Origin: Citreicoccus inhibens
GTDB lineage: Bacteria; Myxococcota; Myxococcia; Myxococcales; Myxococcaceae
Length of the DNA: 64,000 nt
Direction of reading: 5' to 3'
Assembly (NCBI RefSeq): GCF_019039035.1
Contig: NZ_JAHNZT010000011.1
Location: 62,001 to 126,000 of the forward strand
How positions within the stretch are numbered: position 1 is the stretch's first letter; each line of letters begins with the position of its first letter. The translations under genes were made by a program, and so were the position numbers. The notes below the pieces were generated by a model. The model was not told where the DNA came from, ran no database searches, and saw nothing but the letters and a program-made list of their open reading frames with translations. Positions 37,128-62,104 of the stretch are shown here, in pieces.

Positions 37128-38759
37128 ATGTCTCCAGAGTCTGTGGATGTGATCATCGTGGGATGCGGCCCGGTTGGGGCCATGGCAGCCAACTTCTTGG
37201 GCCAGCAGGGACTGCGCACCCTGATCATCGAGAAGGAGACGACGGCCCACGGCCAGTCTCGCGCCATCAACGCCGACGACGAGACGCAGCGCATCTTCCA
37301 GGCTGCGGGCCTGATGGATCTGCTGGGGCCCGACCTGCATCCCTGCCAGCGCATGGCGTATGTCGATGACGAGCTGCGTGTGTTGGCGGAGGTGGACTTC
37401 GCGAAGGTGGAGCGCCCGAACGGCCACGCCATCGGCGCGTTGTTCACGCAGCCGCGCTTGGAGGCCGCGCTTCGCAAGGGCTTCCAGCGCCACGCGAGCG
37501 TCTCGTTCTGGCCGGGCTCGGAGGTCGAGTCCTTCGTGCAGGACGAGGACGGCGTGTCGGTGCGCGTGAAGGAGCTCGCCTCGGGTCGCACCGAGTCGGT
37601 GTACGCGCGCTACCTCCTGGCGTGCGATGGCTCGCACAGCAGCATCCGCCGGCGGCTCGGTCTTGCGTTGCAGGGCACGACGGCGCAGGCGCACGCGCTG
37701 GCCATCGCGGTGGGAACGACGTCGGAGGCGCCGGACTTCACCTACTACCCCTGCGGCCCGGAGCGCGTGGGCATCGCGACGCGGACGGCTCGCGACGAAC
37801 TGCGCTTCGACATGGTGGTGCGGCCGGGGCAGGACCTGGAGGAAGTGCGCCGGCCCGAGTACGTGCGCAAGATCATCTCGGCCTTCGTGGATCCGGCGAC
37901 GGTGACGGTGAAGAGCGTCAACGTGTACGCGTACCACAGCCGCATGGCGGAGAAGTGGCGCGTGGGCCGGGTCTTTCTGCTCGGCGACGCGGCGCACCTC
38001 ATGCCGCCGTTCCTGGGGCAGGGCCTGTGCTCGGGCCTGCGCGACGCGGCGAACCTCACGTGGAAGCTGGCGCAGGTGCTCGGCGGCGGCGCGGACGACT
38101 CGCTGCTGGACACGTACGAGGTGGAGCGGCGTCCCCACACCGCGGAGATGATGCGCATCTCCGATTCGCTGGGGCACATGCTGTCCTCGGGCGGTCCGCT
38201 GATGTCTCGCGCGCGCAACGCCTTCATCCACCTGCTGTACCGGCTGCCGGTGACGGGGCCATTCATCCGCGAGTACCGGATGAAGCCGAACCTCTTCTTC
38301 TCCGAGGGCTTCATGCGGGGCGGACGCCGCGAGGGCAAGGATGCGGCCGAAGGGCTGCTCATCCCCCAGCCTCGCGTGCAGCGCGCGAACGGCGAGACGC
38401 TCCTCCTGGACGACGCGCTGGGGGACGGCTTCGCGGTCATCACCCGGCCGGGCGCGACGGTGGAGGTGCAGCAGGGCGCGCGAGAGCTGGCCGAGGAGCT
38501 GGGCGCGCCTTGGGTGCACCTGGCGCCCGCGGCCCGCGTCGATGCGGGCCGCTCGGGGGAGCTCGTCGATGTGGAGGGGCGCCTCGGAAGCTGGTTCGCG
38601 AAGCACGCGGCGGACGTGGTGGTGGTGCGGCCGGATCGCTACGTGTACGGCACCGCGGACGCGACCACGCTGAGCGACCTGCACGGCTCGCTCAAGGGCC
38701 GGATTCGTCCCTGCACGCGGCGGGGCGGGCGGGTGGCGCGGCGCGCCTCGAGCGCATAG
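37128..38759 (+). CDS. FAD-dependent aromatic hydroxylase (PheA/TfdB/MhpA type)
   Basis: This 543-residue group A flavoprotein monooxygenase has the dinucleotide motif VIIVGCGPVGAMAANFL (9-25), the YLLACDGSHSSIRRRLG DG motif (about 163-180), and the GD motif VFLLGDAAHLMPPFLGQGLCSGLRDAANL (about 283-311). A thioredoxin-like C-terminal domain (about 400-530, DRYVYGTAD near the end) is typical of phenol and 3-hydroxyphenylpropionate hydroxylases. It would hydroxylate an aromatic or quinone-like substrate with NAD(P)H and oxygen. No ring-cleavage genes are nearby, so a tailoring role is more likely than catabolism. Confidence 0.82.
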   Translation: MSPESVDVIIVGCGPVGAMAANFLGQQGLRTLIIEKETTAHGQSRAINADDETQRIFQAAGLMDLLGPDLHPCQRMAYVDDELRVLAEVDFAKVERPNGHAIGALFTQPRLEAALRKGFQRHASVSFWPGSEVESFVQDEDGVSVRVKELASGRTESVYARYLLACDGSHSSIRRRLGLALQGTTAQAHALAIAVGTTSEAPDFTYYPCGPERVGIATRTARDELRFDMVVRPGQDLEEVRRPEYVRKIISAFVDPATVTVKSVNVYAYHSRMAEKWRVGRVFLLGDAAHLMPPFLGQGLCSGLRDAANLTWKLAQVLGGGADDSLLDTYEVERRPHTAEMMRISDSLGHMLSSGGPLMSRARNAFIHLLYRLPVTGPFIREYRMKPNLFFSEGFMRGGRREGKDAAEGLLIPQPRVQRANGETLLLDDALGDGFAVITRPGATVEVQQGARELAEELGAPWVHLAPAARVDAGRSGELVDVEGRLGSWFAKHAADVVVVRPDRYVYGTADATTLSDLHGSLKGRIRPCTRRGGRVARRASSA

Positions 38760-38776
38760 TCCCTCGTGAAAACGAC

Positions 38777-38812
38777 TCCGGGCGCCCTGGAGACACACCA
38801 GGCGCGCCCGGA
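38777..38812. terminator. Convergent terminator after the hydroxylase
   Basis: TCCGGGCGCCCTGG pairs with CCAGGCGCGCCCGGA around a 7-nt loop, with one bulge. It sits between converging genes, 17 and 22 bp from their stops. Confidence 0.6.
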
Positions 38813-38834
38813 CGGACTTCGGACGGGGAGGGGC

Positions 38835-39587
38835 TCAGGCCGCGGCGGAGCTCATCATCTTGCGCGCGCGCTCCAGGCAGTCGCCGTAGAAGCGCAGGTA
38901 GATGTCCAGCGCGCGTGCGCCCGTCTTCCCGATGGTGTCCGCGTGCGCGGGCACCTGACCCAGCAGCCGGGTCAGCATGTTCTCGTTGAGCGCCGTGTGG
39001 CCCACGTCCAGCTCCACGTGCTCCTCGATGAAGGACAGCGACTTCATGATGTCCTTGCCGAGCACGCGCTTGCACTGCTCGATGAGCTTGGGCGCGAACT
39101 GCACGGAGAGGTTCTCGATCTCGTACTCGATGGCGACCTGACCGCCCGGCATGGCGCTGGCGATGGTCTCCTCGTGAATCTCGCGGTACTCCTGCATGGC
39201 CCGGCTGGGGGGCTGGTTGAGGAGCTGCTCCGCGTCGAGCTTCGGCGTGCGGCGCTGGTTCCAACTGGCCACGAGGTTCTTTGTGTCCTGCACCATCATC
39301 AGGTGGTGCCCCGCCTCGTGCTTGGCGTGGGTGATGAGCTGTCTGCCGATCTCGTCCAGGCCCACGCGCAGACAGGACTCACCGGCGCGGCGGATCCAAC
39401 CGTCCACGGGCTCGGTCATGTACACGCCGAGGGAGCACAGCTGGATGAGGAAGGCCTCGAGCAGCATCGGGTCCACGTTCGGATCCAGCAGGGTGCGAAC
39501 GGCGGGGCCTGACTGAAGGGCCTCACGGACAGTGGCCACATGCGGCATGTACTGCTCGGCGACGAGGTTCTTGTTCATGGGGTTCAT
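38835..39587 (-). CDS. Haem-oxygenase-like diiron (iron-containing redox) enzyme family
   Basis: This 250-residue all-helical protein resembles the Haem_oxygenas_2/HDO superfamily. Likely metal ligands are in HAKHEAGHHLMM (about residues 85-96), the IEYEIENLS helix, and EEHVELDVGHTALNE (about 186-200), where HxExDxxH is the family hallmark. Known HDO enzymes oxidise or fragment small molecules (UndA, SznF, BesC), but many are unassigned. The ATG at 39587 overlaps the upstream stop by 4 bp, so it is translationally coupled to the PilZ protein. Alternative start ATG 39578. Substrate unknown. Confidence 0.68.
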   Translation of the reverse strand: MNPMNKNLVAEQYMPHVATVREALQSGPAVRTLLDPNVDPMLLEAFLIQLCSLGVYMTEPVDGWIRRAGESCLRVGLDEIGRQLITHAKHEAGHHLMMVQDTKNLVASWNQRRTPKLDAEQLLNQPPSRAMQEYREIHEETIASAMPGGQVAIEYEIENLSVQFAPKLIEQCKRVLGKDIMKSLSFIEEHVELDVGHTALNENMLTRLLGQVPAHADTIGKTGARALDIYLRFYGDCLERARKMMSSAAA

Positions 39588-41740
39588 CCTTGGCGGGGGG
39601 AGTGGGCGCCACGGCGCCCGATCGTCAGTTCGCTGATGTGCTCGAGGAAGTCCGGGACGAGCTTGGAGGAGATGATCCACAGGTAGGGATCCGGCCCGTC
39701 GTGCAGCCCGGACTCCTCGACGTAGCTGCCGCCCTCGTCCTCGCGCAGGAAGAGGAACGACTCCCGGTTGCGCGCCGCGTACCACCGCCGCGCCTCGTCC
39801 ATCAGGGCCGCGTACGTCCGCTGGCCGTCCTCGACGAGGGAGAACATCCGGGTGTTGTCCAGCAGCCGGAACAGGTTGGTCCCGAGCTGCCCCAGCTCCA
39901 CGACCGCCGCGGCCTGCGGCACGCCCGCGCGACGGGCGACCAGGATGGCGCGCTCGCGCTCCATGCCGAAGCTCTTCCACTTCTGCGTCACCGGCGTCAG
40001 GTCCAGCCGGTCCCGCGTGAAGTCGAGCGACTCCACGTAACACTCCGGGAAGGAGCGGGCCACGCTGGCCGCCAGCAGCGACAGCTCCCCCGGCGTCGCG
40101 GGCCCGATCTCCAGCTCTCGGAAGTCTCGGCCGCTCAGCTCATGGCTGTAGGCCTTCATCTTCTGGATCTTCCGCGTGTAGGCCAGCCCCGAGCCCTGCT
40201 CCATCTGGCGCTGCGCGTAGCGCACGTGCGCCTTGGCGATCCACGGGTTCAACGCCTCGACGTAGGCCACCACCCAGTGGAAGTCCGGGTCGCTCTGCGG
40301 GTGCTCGAACGTGCGCAAATAGATGTCGCGCATGATCTGCCCCGGCTCCTGAACGCCGGTGGGCGGCTTGCCGGGGCGCTTGGCCACCTGATGCCCCAGC
40401 CACGCATGGCGGTAGGGCTTGGTGAACGACAGGGTCGCCTCGATGCCGCGCTCGGACGGCCACACCGCCTGGCAGAAGAGCTGGGGAACGTCAGCGGCCC
40501 GGCGCGCGAGCGACTCGAAGTTCATCTTCAGCTCCTGGAACGCCTCCGGGGAGCTGCCGCCCAGGTTGAAGAAGCCCGAGCGCGTGAAGAGATCCCAAAG
40601 GCCCTCCACCAGGTCCTCGCTGGTGCGGGTGGCCGGCGACATCGTCTGCGACACGAAGCGCACCCACCGCGCCTCGTCCACCGAGTACGGCTGGATGCTG
40701 ATGCCGCACAGCACGGTGCCATCCGCGCGGGGGCGGGTGACGTAGCGAAGCTCGCCGCGCAGGCTGAGCGTCTGGCCGTTGCCGGTGTCCAGCTCGATGA
40801 GCGGCGGCAGCAGGCCCGGGAACATCAGGTCCTCCGGCGCGCACCGCACGCACAGCCCGGAGAAGGACAGGTCGAGGACCTCGCGTTCCAGCTCCCCCAG
40901 CTCACGCCACAGCGGGTGGTGAAAGCGAACGCGCACGCCCTCGGGGGCCGGGACGCGCCGATGCCACCGGTGGCGGATGCGGAAGAGGTGCTCGGGCAGC
41001 GTCGTGAAGAACCGCGAGCCCTCGCCATGCCCCTCCTCGAGCCGCATTCGGTACGCGGAGTTGTAGCCGATGACGTCGATGTCGTAGGAGGGCGCGCCCC
41101 ACTCGGGCTCCGCCTCGTCGGTGCGCCACTCCAGCTGTCCGGTGGCCGGGTTGTAGCGCTCCAGCTCCATCCGCACCGTGCGGCCCATGCGCCGCAGCAC
41201 GCCCTTGTTTCCCGCGGCGCAGATGGCCACGAGGATGGAGCGGATGCGATCCGCGTCCGCGATGGTGTCCTGCACCGGCAGCGCGGAGGCCGCGGGCTCC
41301 GCCACGCCCCGGCGCAGCGCATCCGCCAGCAGCGCGACAATCTCCCGGCCCTGCTCCAAGGAGACGCCTACCAGCTGAAGGCCCACCGGCGCGTGAGCGA
41401 CCTCGGCATCCGTCCGGATGAACGCTCCGTGAAGCGGCCCCAGCGTGACGCCGTTGCCGGACAGGTACACCGGCAGGGGACGGCTCTCGCTGGTGTCCAC
41501 CTGCGCCTGTCGGGGCGTCACCCACACGATGGTGGGGCTCAGCCGGGTGATCTCCCCGAGCACGTTCTCGGGCGTACCGAGCGAGCAGGTGAGCGCATTC
41601 ACGCCCGTTCCGTGCAGGGAGTACCCAGAGTCGTCGAGGGCGGCCTCGGCCGGCGGAAGTGGGATGACGTTTCGCAGCGCGTCACCACTGCCGAACTCGA
41701 CCCCGCGGCGCGCCGATGTACCCGGAGTGCCTCCTTCCAT
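39584..41740 (-). CDS. Large PilZ-domain protein with GNAT-like C-terminal region
   Basis: The start is set at 41740, below the promoter at 41856-41883, with GAGGG about 10 nt upstream; the longer open frame runs through that promoter. The 718-residue protein has a YcgR-like N-terminal region (LPEHLFRIR), a PilZ domain with RHRWHRR (about 252-258) and DLSFSGLCVR (about 290) that should bind cyclic di-GMP, and a C-terminal half (about 365-700) resembling tandem acyltransferase (GNAT/FemX-like) folds, with MERERAILVARRAGVPQAAAVV. The enzyme half is unassigned. It shares an operon with the diiron protein. Confidence 0.68.
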   Translation of the reverse strand: MEGGTPGTSARRGVEFGSGDALRNVIPLPPAEAALDDSGYSLHGTGVNALTCSLGTPENVLGEITRLSPTIVWVTPRQAQVDTSESRPLPVYLSGNGVTLGPLHGAFIRTDAEVAHAPVGLQLVGVSLEQGREIVALLADALRRGVAEPAASALPVQDTIADADRIRSILVAICAAGNKGVLRRMGRTVRMELERYNPATGQLEWRTDEAEPEWGAPSYDIDVIGYNSAYRMRLEEGHGEGSRFFTTLPEHLFRIRHRWHRRVPAPEGVRVRFHHPLWRELGELEREVLDLSFSGLCVRCAPEDLMFPGLLPPLIELDTGNGQTLSLRGELRYVTRPRADGTVLCGISIQPYSVDEARWVRFVSQTMSPATRTSEDLVEGLWDLFTRSGFFNLGGSSPEAFQELKMNFESLARRAADVPQLFCQAVWPSERGIEATLSFTKPYRHAWLGHQVAKRPGKPPTGVQEPGQIMRDIYLRTFEHPQSDPDFHWVVAYVEALNPWIAKAHVRYAQRQMEQGSGLAYTRKIQKMKAYSHELSGRDFRELEIGPATPGELSLLAASVARSFPECYVESLDFTRDRLDLTPVTQKWKSFGMERERAILVARRAGVPQAAAVVELGQLGTNLFRLLDNTRMFSLVEDGQRTYAALMDEARRWYAARNRESFLFLREDEGGSYVEESGLHDGPDPYLWIISSKLVPDFLEHISELTIGRRGAHSPRQG

Positions 41741-41855
41741 GGTCTGGAACCCTCTTCTCCGGGCGACGACGCCATTCATGGACGGCGATGTTGCGAGCAC
41801 AACAGTCCCTCCCTGCTCCGGCGCTCCTGCGGTCGGCAACTTGACTCTGCGTCGC

Positions 41856-41883
41856 ATCATATGGACTGACGAGAAACAGTCAA
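41856..41883 (-). promoter_or_regulatory. Strong sigma-70-type promoter of the PilZ/diiron operon
   Basis: On the minus strand TTGACT (41883-41878) and TATGAT (41861-41856) are 16 bp apart. The start near 41849 gives a leader of about 109 nt before the ATG at 41740. Confidence 0.6.
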
Positions 41884-42072
41884 ATCGAATTTGTGCATCC
41901 TGGCTGTTTTTGCGGAGCTGGGTGGTTTCTGAATCAGGGTTCCATGTGACTAAGTGATTGCCCGTATTCCGTGATTCTTGAGCGCCTCGCGGAACGACTC
42001 CACACCCAAGTCCTGGCGTCACCGGAATGTCACAAAGGCGGTTTCCCTCGGGGGCAGATGCAGGGGAGAGGG

Positions 42073-42102
42073 TGGACGTGTGTCGGAGGAGCCCGGTACA
42101 GT
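42073..42102 (+). promoter_or_regulatory. Possible promoter of the ATPase-domain gene
   Basis: TGGACG and TACAGT are separated by 18 bp. The predicted start near 42109 is 26 nt before the ATG, which has GGAGAGG 6-12 nt upstream. Confidence 0.4.
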
Positions 42103-42134
42103 TCTGATCCGCAGCCAAGCGGAGAGGTGCCCCG

Positions 42135-42692
42135 ATGAGCGCAGCCCTGAGTGCCGTGGGAGCCAAGGCCCTTCAGAAAGAACCGCAAGGACGTTCCCAG
42201 GCGCTGGAGCCGGTGGACGTGCCGGACGTACTCCAAGTGGATGTCGCGGTCGCGGCGCACAACGCCCTGGAGCTGCTCGGCGCCACGCGCCGGCTGCGCG
42301 GGGTGGAGGTGAAGCTGTCGCTGCCGGATGAGCCGGTGATCGCGCGCGTCAGCCGGCGCCGGTTGGAGCAGGTGTTGTTGCTGCTCCTCGCTCACGCGGC
42401 GGACACCCTGGGCGGTGAGTCACCGGGGGTGCGCCTCACGGTGGAGCCTCCGGATGACTTTGGTGACGTGGGGCCGCGCTTCCACGTCGTCACGCCGGGC
42501 GCGAACCTGTCGGATCGCGAGATCCAATCCATTCTCCTGGCGCCGCTGCTGGTCAGCTCGCCGCACCGGCGACTGGCGCGGGCGCGCGAGTTGCTCGAGT
42601 CGGTGGGCGGCACGCTGAGCGTGGCGCGAGAGCTTCCCTCTGGGACGCGTGTCACCGTGGAGCTGCCCGCTCCGGGGCTCGCGAGCTGGTAG
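42135..42692 (+). CDS. Degenerate histidine-kinase-like ATPase domain protein
   Basis: This 185-residue protein matches the C-terminal ATPase (HATPase_c) fold: an N-box-like helix (RRRLEQVLLLLLAHAADTLGG near 72-92), beta strands (VRLTVEPPDDF), a G-box region reduced to RLARARELLESVGGTLSVARELPSGTRVTVELP. The Asn of the N-box is replaced and no phospho-accepting His motif is present, so phosphorylation is unlikely. It might be a phosphotransfer or sensor partner (ChpT-like shape) or an anti-sigma-like protein. No response regulator is adjacent. It stands alone between a promoter and terminator. Confidence 0.6.
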   Translation: MSAALSAVGAKALQKEPQGRSQALEPVDVPDVLQVDVAVAAHNALELLGATRRLRGVEVKLSLPDEPVIARVSRRRLEQVLLLLLAHAADTLGGESPGVRLTVEPPDDFGDVGPRFHVVTPGANLSDREIQSILLAPLLVSSPHRRLARARELLESVGGTLSVARELPSGTRVTVELPAPGLASW

Positions 42693-60682: not shown

Positions 60683-62104
60683 TTACTCGTCCGGCCCCTC
60701 GTCCTGGCCGTCCGGCGACGGGTCGCGGAGGCCAAACTCTTTCATCTTCGTCTGGAGCGACTTGCGGCTGATCTGCAGCAGGCGCGCGGCCCGCGTGACG
60801 TTGCCGCCCGTCTCATCGAGCTTCTTCACGATGAGGTCGCGCTCCAACTCGGCCGCCTTCATCCGGACGATGTCCTTGAGGCCCACTTCGCCCGTGGGGA
60901 CCTCGAGCGTGGCTGAGGAGGACGGGCTGGTGCCCGCGGTCATGCTCGTGCCCTGTCTGACGGGCTCGGGCAGGTCCTTCGCGGTGATGAGGGGACCATC
61001 CGCGAAGAGCAGCACGCGCTCGATGAGGTTCTCCAACTCGCGGATGTTGCCGGGCCACGCGTAGGTCTGCAGCAGGGTCAGCGCGTCGTCCGCGATGCCC
61101 TCGATCTTCTTGTTGAGGCGCCGGTTGTACTTGTCGACGAAGTGCTGGGCGAGCATGGGGATGTCGCTCCGGCGCTCGCGCAGCGCGGGCAGCACGATGG
61201 GGACCACCGCCAGCCGGTAGTACAGATCCTTGCGGAATCGGCCCGCTTCAATCTCGGCCTGCAGGTCCCGGTTCGTGGCCGCCACCAGGCGCACGTCCAC
61301 GCGCGTCGTCTTGATGCCGCCCACGCGCTCGAACTCACCCTCCTGGAGCGCTCGCAGGAGCTTCACCTGCATCTCGACGGGGATCTCGCCAATCTCGTCG
61401 AGGAAGAGGGTGCCTTCGTCGGCCAGTTCGAAGCGGCCTGGCTTGGAGGTGACCGCCCCGGTGAAGGCGCCCTTCTCGTAGCCGAACAGCTCGCTCTCCA
61501 GCAGCGTGGCGGGGATGGCCGCGCAGTTGATCTTGATGAAGGGCTTGTCGCGCCGGCTGGAGGCGCCGTGCAGCGCGGTGGCGATGAGCTCCTTGCCCGT
61601 GCCGCTCTCGCCCGTGATCAGCACCGTCGAGGGCGTGTCCGCGACCTTGTCGATGATCTTGTAGACGTCCTGGATGGGCGGGGACTCGCCGATGATGGCC
61701 GCTCGTGCCTTGTGGTCTGGGCGCACCGAGCGCTTGGCGCTCTCGTTCGTCTTGGCGGCCTTGGCCACGACGGAGGACAGCTCGGCTTGATCGAACGGCT
61801 TGGTGATGTAGTCGAACGCGCCGGCCTTGATGGCCTCGACCGCCGAGTCCACGGTGCCGTGCGCGGTGATGATGATGACGGGCACGTCCGAGTTGGCCGC
61901 GCGCACGGAGGCGAGGACCTCCATGCCGCCCACCTTGGGCATCACCAGGTCCGTCACCACGATGTCCGCGCCGTTCTTGTGGAACTCGGCGAGCCCTTGC
62001 TCGCCGTTCTCCGCGACGGTGACGTCAAAGCCGTCCCGGCGCAGCAGCGCGGCCAGCACCTTGCGCAGGTTGGCCTCGTCGTCGATTACCAGGACCTTGG
62101 CCAT
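60683..62104 (-). CDS. NtrC-family sigma-54-dependent response regulator
   Basis: This 473-residue regulator has a receiver (1-120: Asp8, Asp9, phospho-acceptor Asp52, Lys in ITKPF), a sigma-54 AAA+ domain (about 140-370: Walker [15 protein letters not shown] loop, Walker [18 protein letters not shown]) and a C-terminal Fis-type helix-turn-helix ([17 protein letters not shown]). It would activate -24/-12 promoters when phosphorylated. No sensor kinase is adjacent. It sits directly after the encapsulin shell gene (11-bp gap) and may be co-transcribed with it. Targets unknown. Confidence 0.93.

Follow-up and report, generated by a model that had tools for sequence, protein, structure and literature searches.

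The combination of PilZ and GNAT domains in one protein is already known from PixB of Myxococcus xanthus (MXAN_2604), which features two PilZ domains and a C-terminal GNAT acyltransferase (AT) domain, binds cyclic di-GMP (c-di-GMP), and regulates motility and development, including Frz-dependent reversals via the AT domain; the latter suffices for motility control during growth, and development needs all the domains (PMC8316039). Another c-di-GMP effector, the tandem-GNAT (FemX-like) HfsK of Caulobacter crescentus, is linked to the holdfast adhesin and was described as inactivated by ligand binding, with the binding residues assigned to a GNAT domain and to the C-terminus instead of a PilZ domain (PMC5362036). 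For the known haem-oxygenase-like diiron oxidases (HDOs; e.g., CADD, UndA, BesC, HrmI, and AetD), fatty acids and amino acids are the main substrates, and a review of this superfamily mentions no link to GNAT, acyltransferases, or c-di-GMP (PMC13108848). In oxazolone biosynthesis, Rv1355c (TrzS) cyclises and desaturates the N-acyl-tryptophan supplied by the adjacent acyltransferase TrzA (PMC12856293), and tyrazolones are made in a similar manner by TyzABC (PMC10404671). The present work deals with a gene pair from Citreicoccus inhibens (Myxococcaceae) encoding a PilZ-tandem-GNAT protein (P0001) and, immediately downstream, an HDO (P0002). The pair resides in a stretch of 64,000 nucleotides, hereafter the window, comprising positions 62,001 to 126,000 of NZ_JAHNZT010000011.1 (assembly GCF_019039035.1; the window is part of contig C22 of a 9.05 Mb source genome in 123 contigs).

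Our preferred interpretation, which we consider somewhat more likely than not, is that the pair represents a c-di-GMP-gated acyltransferase and a tailoring diiron oxidase, which together make an oxidised N-acyl, probably amino-acid-derived, metabolite. Co-occurrence of the two genes in other genomes, set beforehand by the initial annotation as a test on which the idea of the pair could fail, turned out to be almost complete: when each protein was searched against 98 related genomes, all 40 HDOs with at least 37% identity were encoded directly behind a PilZ-GNAT gene, and an HDO stood beside every one of the 41 PilZ-GNAT genes of the same subfamily except L096. Close relatives in the named collections belong to Myxococcaceae (Corallococcus, Myxococcus, Archangium, Pyxidicoccus, and Hyalangium), and two pairs were present in 17 of 23 genomes. 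Gene calls in the 40 fetched loci placed the gap from the PilZ-GNAT gene to the HDO gene between -20 and +58 nt, and the pair occurred in at least six distinct syntenic contexts. The distance matrices of the two proteins were correlated with a Mantel r of 0.86 (the highest value among 5000 permutations was 0.215), and their paralogue clades were nearly identical. The pairing of 40 out of 40 HDOs together with this correlation rules out chance adjacency; both genes also display dN/dS well below 1 in comparison with another genus (0.16/0.36 and 0.13/0.60), and the gene pair is not a chance feature. When the class around G114 was searched, its four genomes yielded no locus beyond the known one.

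The AlphaFold model of P0001, built with 41 relatives (mean pLDDT 83), supports the earlier assignment of a PilZ domain from the motifs RHRWHRR and DLSFSG. Residues 255-369 of the model superpose on the c-di-GMP-bound PilZ structure 4xrn (Z 13.8, rmsd 1.9, 104 residues), and residues 153-370 align to YcgR (5y6f), MrkH (5kgo), and PP4397 (3kyf), with the PilZ fold located beside a YcgR-N domain. The motifs RIRHRWHRR (254-262) and D290LSFSG295 are more than 90% conserved among the relatives, and the Pfam PilZ profile matches residues 260-358 with E=0.0019, under its curated cut-off. In its fold and in its RxxxR and [D/N]xSxxG motifs, P0001 corresponds to a YcgR-type PilZ receptor, and it would be expected to bind c-di-GMP. 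The half described initially as GNAT-like is modelled as two GNAT folds in tandem, with the matches including 3tt2 (Z 14.8), histidine acetyltransferase 9emp (Z 14.8), and VipF 7wx7 (Z 14.5); across 41 sequences, 21 of its residues are invariant (W447, H450, R595, R597, and E615 among them).

PixB is the closest characterised protein (~24-25% identity over the C-terminal half), and its gene, like that of P0001, is operonic with downstream genes. Still, P0001 is not its orthologue. In PixB, each of the two PilZ domains has RxxxR and the motif Ser is missing, whereas P0001 harbours one complete PilZ motif and a motif-less barrel as its first. The PixB-type operon contains a methyltransferase gene, and most of the loci checked also have a large kinase gene downstream; in the operon of P0001 there is an HDO gene instead. 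The true PixB orthologue among our loci (L172), read from the Met63 start, has the RxxxR arginines at 121 and 331 and DLHTGG without Ser, matching the published PixB, and in the genome harbouring P0001, a PixB-like gene distinct from that of P0001 is located at C34. HfsK resembles P0001 as a tandem-GNAT c-di-GMP effector, but no HDO partner of it has been described.

The HxExDxxH motif highlighted in the initial annotation corresponds to H190-V-E-L-D194-V-G-H197 of P0002. It completes a candidate set of three His and three carboxylates (E91xxH94, one of the two Glu in E154/E156, and H190xxxD194xxH197), the geometry of which was judged from sequence alone; the HxxxDxxH region was aligned with that of CADD via a close relative. 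The AlphaFold model (pLDDT 92.9) has its best structural matches among proteins of the HDO type, i.e., 3dde (Z 22.9), CADD (Z 20), HrmI (Z 18.8), and UndA (Z 18.7), and it matches BesC and AetD as well; 3dde is an uncharacterised protein of the haem-oxygenase fold. The Pfam family Haem_oxygenas_2 is hit with E=5.2e-6, slightly under the cut-off. The ligands are all kept in P0002 and most of its relatives, including very distant ones. P0002 shares with the characterised HDOs the fold (Z 18-23), the size, and the pattern of ExxH and HxxxDxxH of the 3 His/3 carboxylate type, at an identity of ~10-18% (PMC13108848). Its fold and ligand set suggest that P0002 is an HDO, which would carry a dimetal cofactor.

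The features of the locus are summarised in Table 1.

Table 1. Features of the PilZ-tandem-GNAT/HDO locus (window coordinates)
Feature	Position	Strand	Evidence or remark
Candidate promoter, TTGACT-16 nt-TATGAT	41856..41883	-	Candidate by sequence; within the conserved AAATTCGATTTGACTGTT block
Probable N-terminal extension of the PilZ-GNAT protein	41741..41800	-	GTG start at 41800, GGGAGG 7 nt upstream
PilZ-tandem-GNAT protein P0001, 718 aa from ATG	39584..41740	-	Open reading frame; AlphaFold model; fold matches
P0001 residues ~40-145: PilZ-like beta barrel and C-terminal helix (by analogy)	41306..41623	-	Secondary structure of the model; no RxxxR
P0001 residues 153-258: YcgR-N (PilZN)-like domain	40967..41284	-	Aligned to 5y6h (YcgR-N), Z 13.5, rmsd 2.4, 102 residues
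P0001 residues 255-370: predicted PilZ domain	40631..40978	-	Fold match, Pfam, motifs RxxxR (254-262) and DLSFSG (290-295)
P0001 residues ~370-708: predicted tandem GNAT acyltransferase domain	39617..40633	-	Two GNAT folds in the model
Putative HDO P0002, 250 aa (247 aa with the start at 39578)	38835..39587	-	Candidate ligands E91, H94, E154/E156, H190, D194, H197

The promoter of its own claimed for the pair was recovered as the sole sigma-70-like match in 38500-42400 (3.9 kb; 0.1 expected), and its -35 block, AAATTCGATTTGACTGTT, is kept across genera in the upstream regions of seven loci. As read from the sequence, the genes of the PilZ protein and the HDO constitute a single unit, preceded by this putative promoter, which is conserved across genera. 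The gene boundaries proposed initially seem to need some adjustment. The reading frame giving 718 residues is there as described, but the reading frame upstream of its ATG is preserved in the relatives despite a 3-nt indel, and the Shine-Dalgarno-like GGGAGG is conserved; hence, the protein probably starts at GTG 41800, i.e., 20 codons earlier. Likewise, the 4-bp overlap of the genes (ATGA, 39587-39584) exists in the sequence, but only if the first ATG of the HDO gene is its start. The second ATG (39578) is preceded by a well-spaced AAGGA, and the relatives begin at this Met (MNK/MSK); the HDO probably starts there, so the true intergenic spacing is probably +5 nt, and the overlap is perhaps not a trait of the gene structure.

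A gene on the plus strand (37128-38759), convergent with the HDO gene and syntenic in related genera, encodes a FAD hydroxylase that belongs to the 3-(3-hydroxyphenyl)propionate hydroxylase subfamily (NF004829). This gene, the menaquinone genes, and icd/mdh/sdh were considered as members of the pathway and rejected: their synteny with the pair is confined to one paralogue clade, and other clades have other neighbours, so the flanking genes of the window are not part of the unit. In two clades of paralogues, though not in the window, a DUF2378 protein is encoded close to the pair (L066:6583-7230 and further c2 loci).

In more distant relatives of the PilZ-GNAT protein, other enzymes are encoded directly downstream instead of the HDO. 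In other families of Myxococcota, this place is taken by a B12-radical SAM protein (L151:10278-11879, L155:6981-8627, and L158:9223-10881, where the upstream gene comprises the GNAT part only), and in L160, L154, and L156 (the pixB operon) by a methyltransferase. In L150, the partner, overlapping by 4 bp, is a ThiF-nitroreductase fusion passing NF005901, the Rv1355c family (786 bits vs. the cut-off of 476), and no other recognised acyltransferase was found at this locus. The PilZ-GNAT/TrzS-type pair (L150:7985-12351, genome G163) is preceded by a STAS/anti-sigma/PP2C-type switch and by a FAD protein resembling Trp halogenases, and the whole is likely a c-di-GMP-gated oxazolone cluster. A third PilZ-GNAT subfamily, with ~35% identity to P0001 (L062:7067-9109; C27:29066-30856 in the genome of the window), occurs in a single copy in most of the pair-bearing genomes searched; no partner enzyme adjoins the genes of this type.

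The HDO subfamily, in turn, extends beyond Myxococcaceae: a scan of named genomes revealed 51 loci in several phyla. The scan patterns include the ligand residues, so the conservation of the ligands in this set is partly by construction; that of the neighbours is not. In other Myxococcota or unclassified metagenome-assembled genomes (MAGs), the PilZ-GNAT and HDO pair is kept (L149/L173 and L192); the genes overlap in L149, where PilZ escapes Pfam and was assigned by reading the motifs RRYPR..EDLNAAG. In three MAGs of Alphaproteobacteria (L216, L219, and L220), the HDO and an Acetyltransf_5/FeeM-like domain form one fusion protein (the match in L216 is weaker). Elsewhere, an acyltransferase gene follows that of the HDO, representing FeeM in L212 (E=2.5e-12, above the cut-off), Acetyltransf_5/Autoind_synth in L211, and Acetyltransf_5 in L217. 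A weak GNAT match is located beside the HDO in L215 (Actinomadura), the neighbour in Nannocystis (L193, L199) has no Pfam match and is GNAT-like by reading only, and the sequence of L218 ends before the neighbour. Overall, the HDO subfamily is repeatedly and independently paired with acyltransferases. The loci with the fused HDO (ORFs ~4740-6390 in L216, L219, and L220) are syntenic, and a SDR dehydrogenase, a rhomboid-like protein, and auxin-efflux-type transporters, named by reading, adjoin there.

Several paralogues of the pair lack the PilZ part (L080, L081, L203, and L206), and outside Myxococcota the HDO joins plain FeeM/GNAT proteins. Hence, GNAT and HDO are the enzymatic core, and PilZ is an added control part. 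The initial idea of an enzyme system controlled by a second messenger persists in so far as there is a PilZ protein and an operon, but its core is the acyltransferase with the HDO. Since these two make up the core, c-di-GMP would gate the acyltransferase whose product is tailored by the HDO, rather than act directly on the HDO. According to the proposed mechanism, the YcgR-N and PilZ module would bind c-di-GMP and set the activity of the attached tandem GNAT, which would acylate an amine, with an amino acid as the most likely acceptor. Using O2 and its diiron centre, the HDO translated from the same mRNA would then oxidise the GNAT product (or its precursor, either the amino acid or the acyl compound), e.g., by desaturation, decarboxylation, or hydroxylation. 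The oxidised N-acyl metabolite would be made upon a change in c-di-GMP, with a plausible role in motility, development, or the lipid chemistry of the envelope, as for the relative PixB. The gene order, in which an O2-using tailoring oxidase comes after the acyltransferase, is shared with TrzA/TrzS, TyzA/B/C, and OxzA/B (PMC12856293, PMC10404671). These oxazolone pathways differ in using a flavin oxidase and a ThiF cyclase, whereas the pair in the window has an HDO and no ThiF cyclase; the acyltransferase of the window combines PilZ with a tandem GNAT and shows no detectable similarity to the FeeM/TyzA type.

A number of observations weigh against this mechanism. Searches of the GNAT half in Pfam, NCBIfam, and PDB sequences gave no family match, the GNAT fold being assigned by the structure model alone. 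The acetyl-CoA motif [QR]xxGx[GA] is not found between beta4 and alpha3 of P0001, where the lone match, QGSGLA at 515, is misplaced, and it is wholly absent from 21 of the 41 relatives; the acyl donor may therefore be other than acetyl-CoA, and "GNAT" denotes here the fold. Residues 372-718 did not match the FeeM or N-acyl amino acid synthase families (PF21926, PF13444, NCBIfam), and hhalign of the tandem GNAT against the FeeM-like partners yielded a probability below 1%, i.e., no sequence similarity was detected. With neither FeeM-type similarity nor a GNAT family match, the acyl-amino-acid chemistry is argued from association, and the likely oxazolone cluster contributes one locus to this argument. 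The sufficiency of the AT domain of PixB during growth implies that c-di-GMP may not control all the functions. Finally, in one clade of paralogues the HDO ligands have been lost stepwise beside intact PilZ-GNAT genes: E91, H94, and H190 in L073, L074, and L090, nearly all in L075, and H197 alone in L068, L070, L093, and L094. The gene pair thus persists with ligand-depleted HDOs, and catalysis is not needed in every lineage.

As a considerably less probable explanation, the PilZ-GNAT protein could be a protein acyltransferase of the type presumed for PixB, which would modify proteins of motility or polarity when c-di-GMP binds, with the HDO co-expressed for a separate task of oxidation or stress. 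The control of Frz-dependent reversals by its distant relative PixB through the AT domain (PMC8316039) agrees with this, as do the fold matches to tandem GNATs with protein targets (VipF, NMT). It fits less well with the linkage or fusion of the HDO subfamily to small FeeM/GNAT acyltransferases, repeated in other phyla; the partners of PilZ-GNAT proteins, too, are metabolic enzymes (TrzS, B12-radical SAM, methyltransferase), for which a small molecule is a better match.

It is rather unlikely that the same pathway runs in reverse, the HDO first making an unusual (N-hydroxylated, desaturated, or ring-forming) amino acid or amine to be acylated by the GNAT afterwards. HrmI, BesC, AetD, and PolF do act on free amino acids (PMC13108848), and the first three are among the structural matches of P0002. 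The pathways of TrzA/TrzS, TyzA, and Oxz feature acylation before oxidation (PMC12856293, PMC10404671), and the GNAT gene leads in the operons of Myxococcota; both are weak evidence against the reversed order. A noncatalytic HDO, which would assist the acyltransferase structurally or as a sensor of O2 or iron, is less probable again: the ligand-depleted HDOs that stay beside the GNAT gene speak for it, but the HDO of the window and most relatives, even very distant, keep all the ligands, and the degenerate copies look like natural pseudoenzymes which arose by late losses in one clade. A CADD-type supply of p-aminobenzoate is highly improbable despite the closeness of the CADD fold and the chorismate and menaquinone genes (named by reading) at ~22-35.5 kb of the window, given the 12.6 bits scored by P0002 with TIGR04305 (CADD) vs. 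the cut-off of 200, the other contexts of most relatives of the pair, the two copies in several genomes, and the partner, which is always an acyltransferase.

The view of the initial annotation that no described pathway connects c-di-GMP and HDOs agrees with the literature searched, in which no paper joins c-di-GMP or PilZ to an HDO and no report couples an HDO with GNAT, PilZ, c-di-GMP, or N-acyl synthases; subscription papers were mostly outside this search, and a report elsewhere is possible. The parts (PilZ, the GNAT fold, and the HDO) are of known kinds; of their combination, the obligate pairing, and the wider partner-swapping family, the literature searched yielded no description. More tentatively than the mechanism proposed for the pair itself, a new class of lipid signalling may be envisaged, in which c-di-GMP would switch a PilZ-tandem-GNAT synthase and swappable partners (HDO, TrzS-type oxazolone synthase, B12-radical SAM protein, methyltransferase) would turn an N-acyl amino acid into distinct signals, the substrate of PixB being of this kind.

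Since P0001 falls under the Pfam cut-off, surveys of receptors relying on Pfam PilZ could overlook this family. A compact subfamily of HDOs, spread over several phyla (the 51 loci of the scan), can be named, and its chemistry is approachable through two genes. If the preferred interpretation is true, it would join c-di-GMP signalling, the biosynthesis of N-acyl amino acid and oxazolone lipids, and HDO chemistry, the fields so far separate, and would provide a concrete guess for the substrate of PixB, which regulates motility and the development of fruiting bodies.

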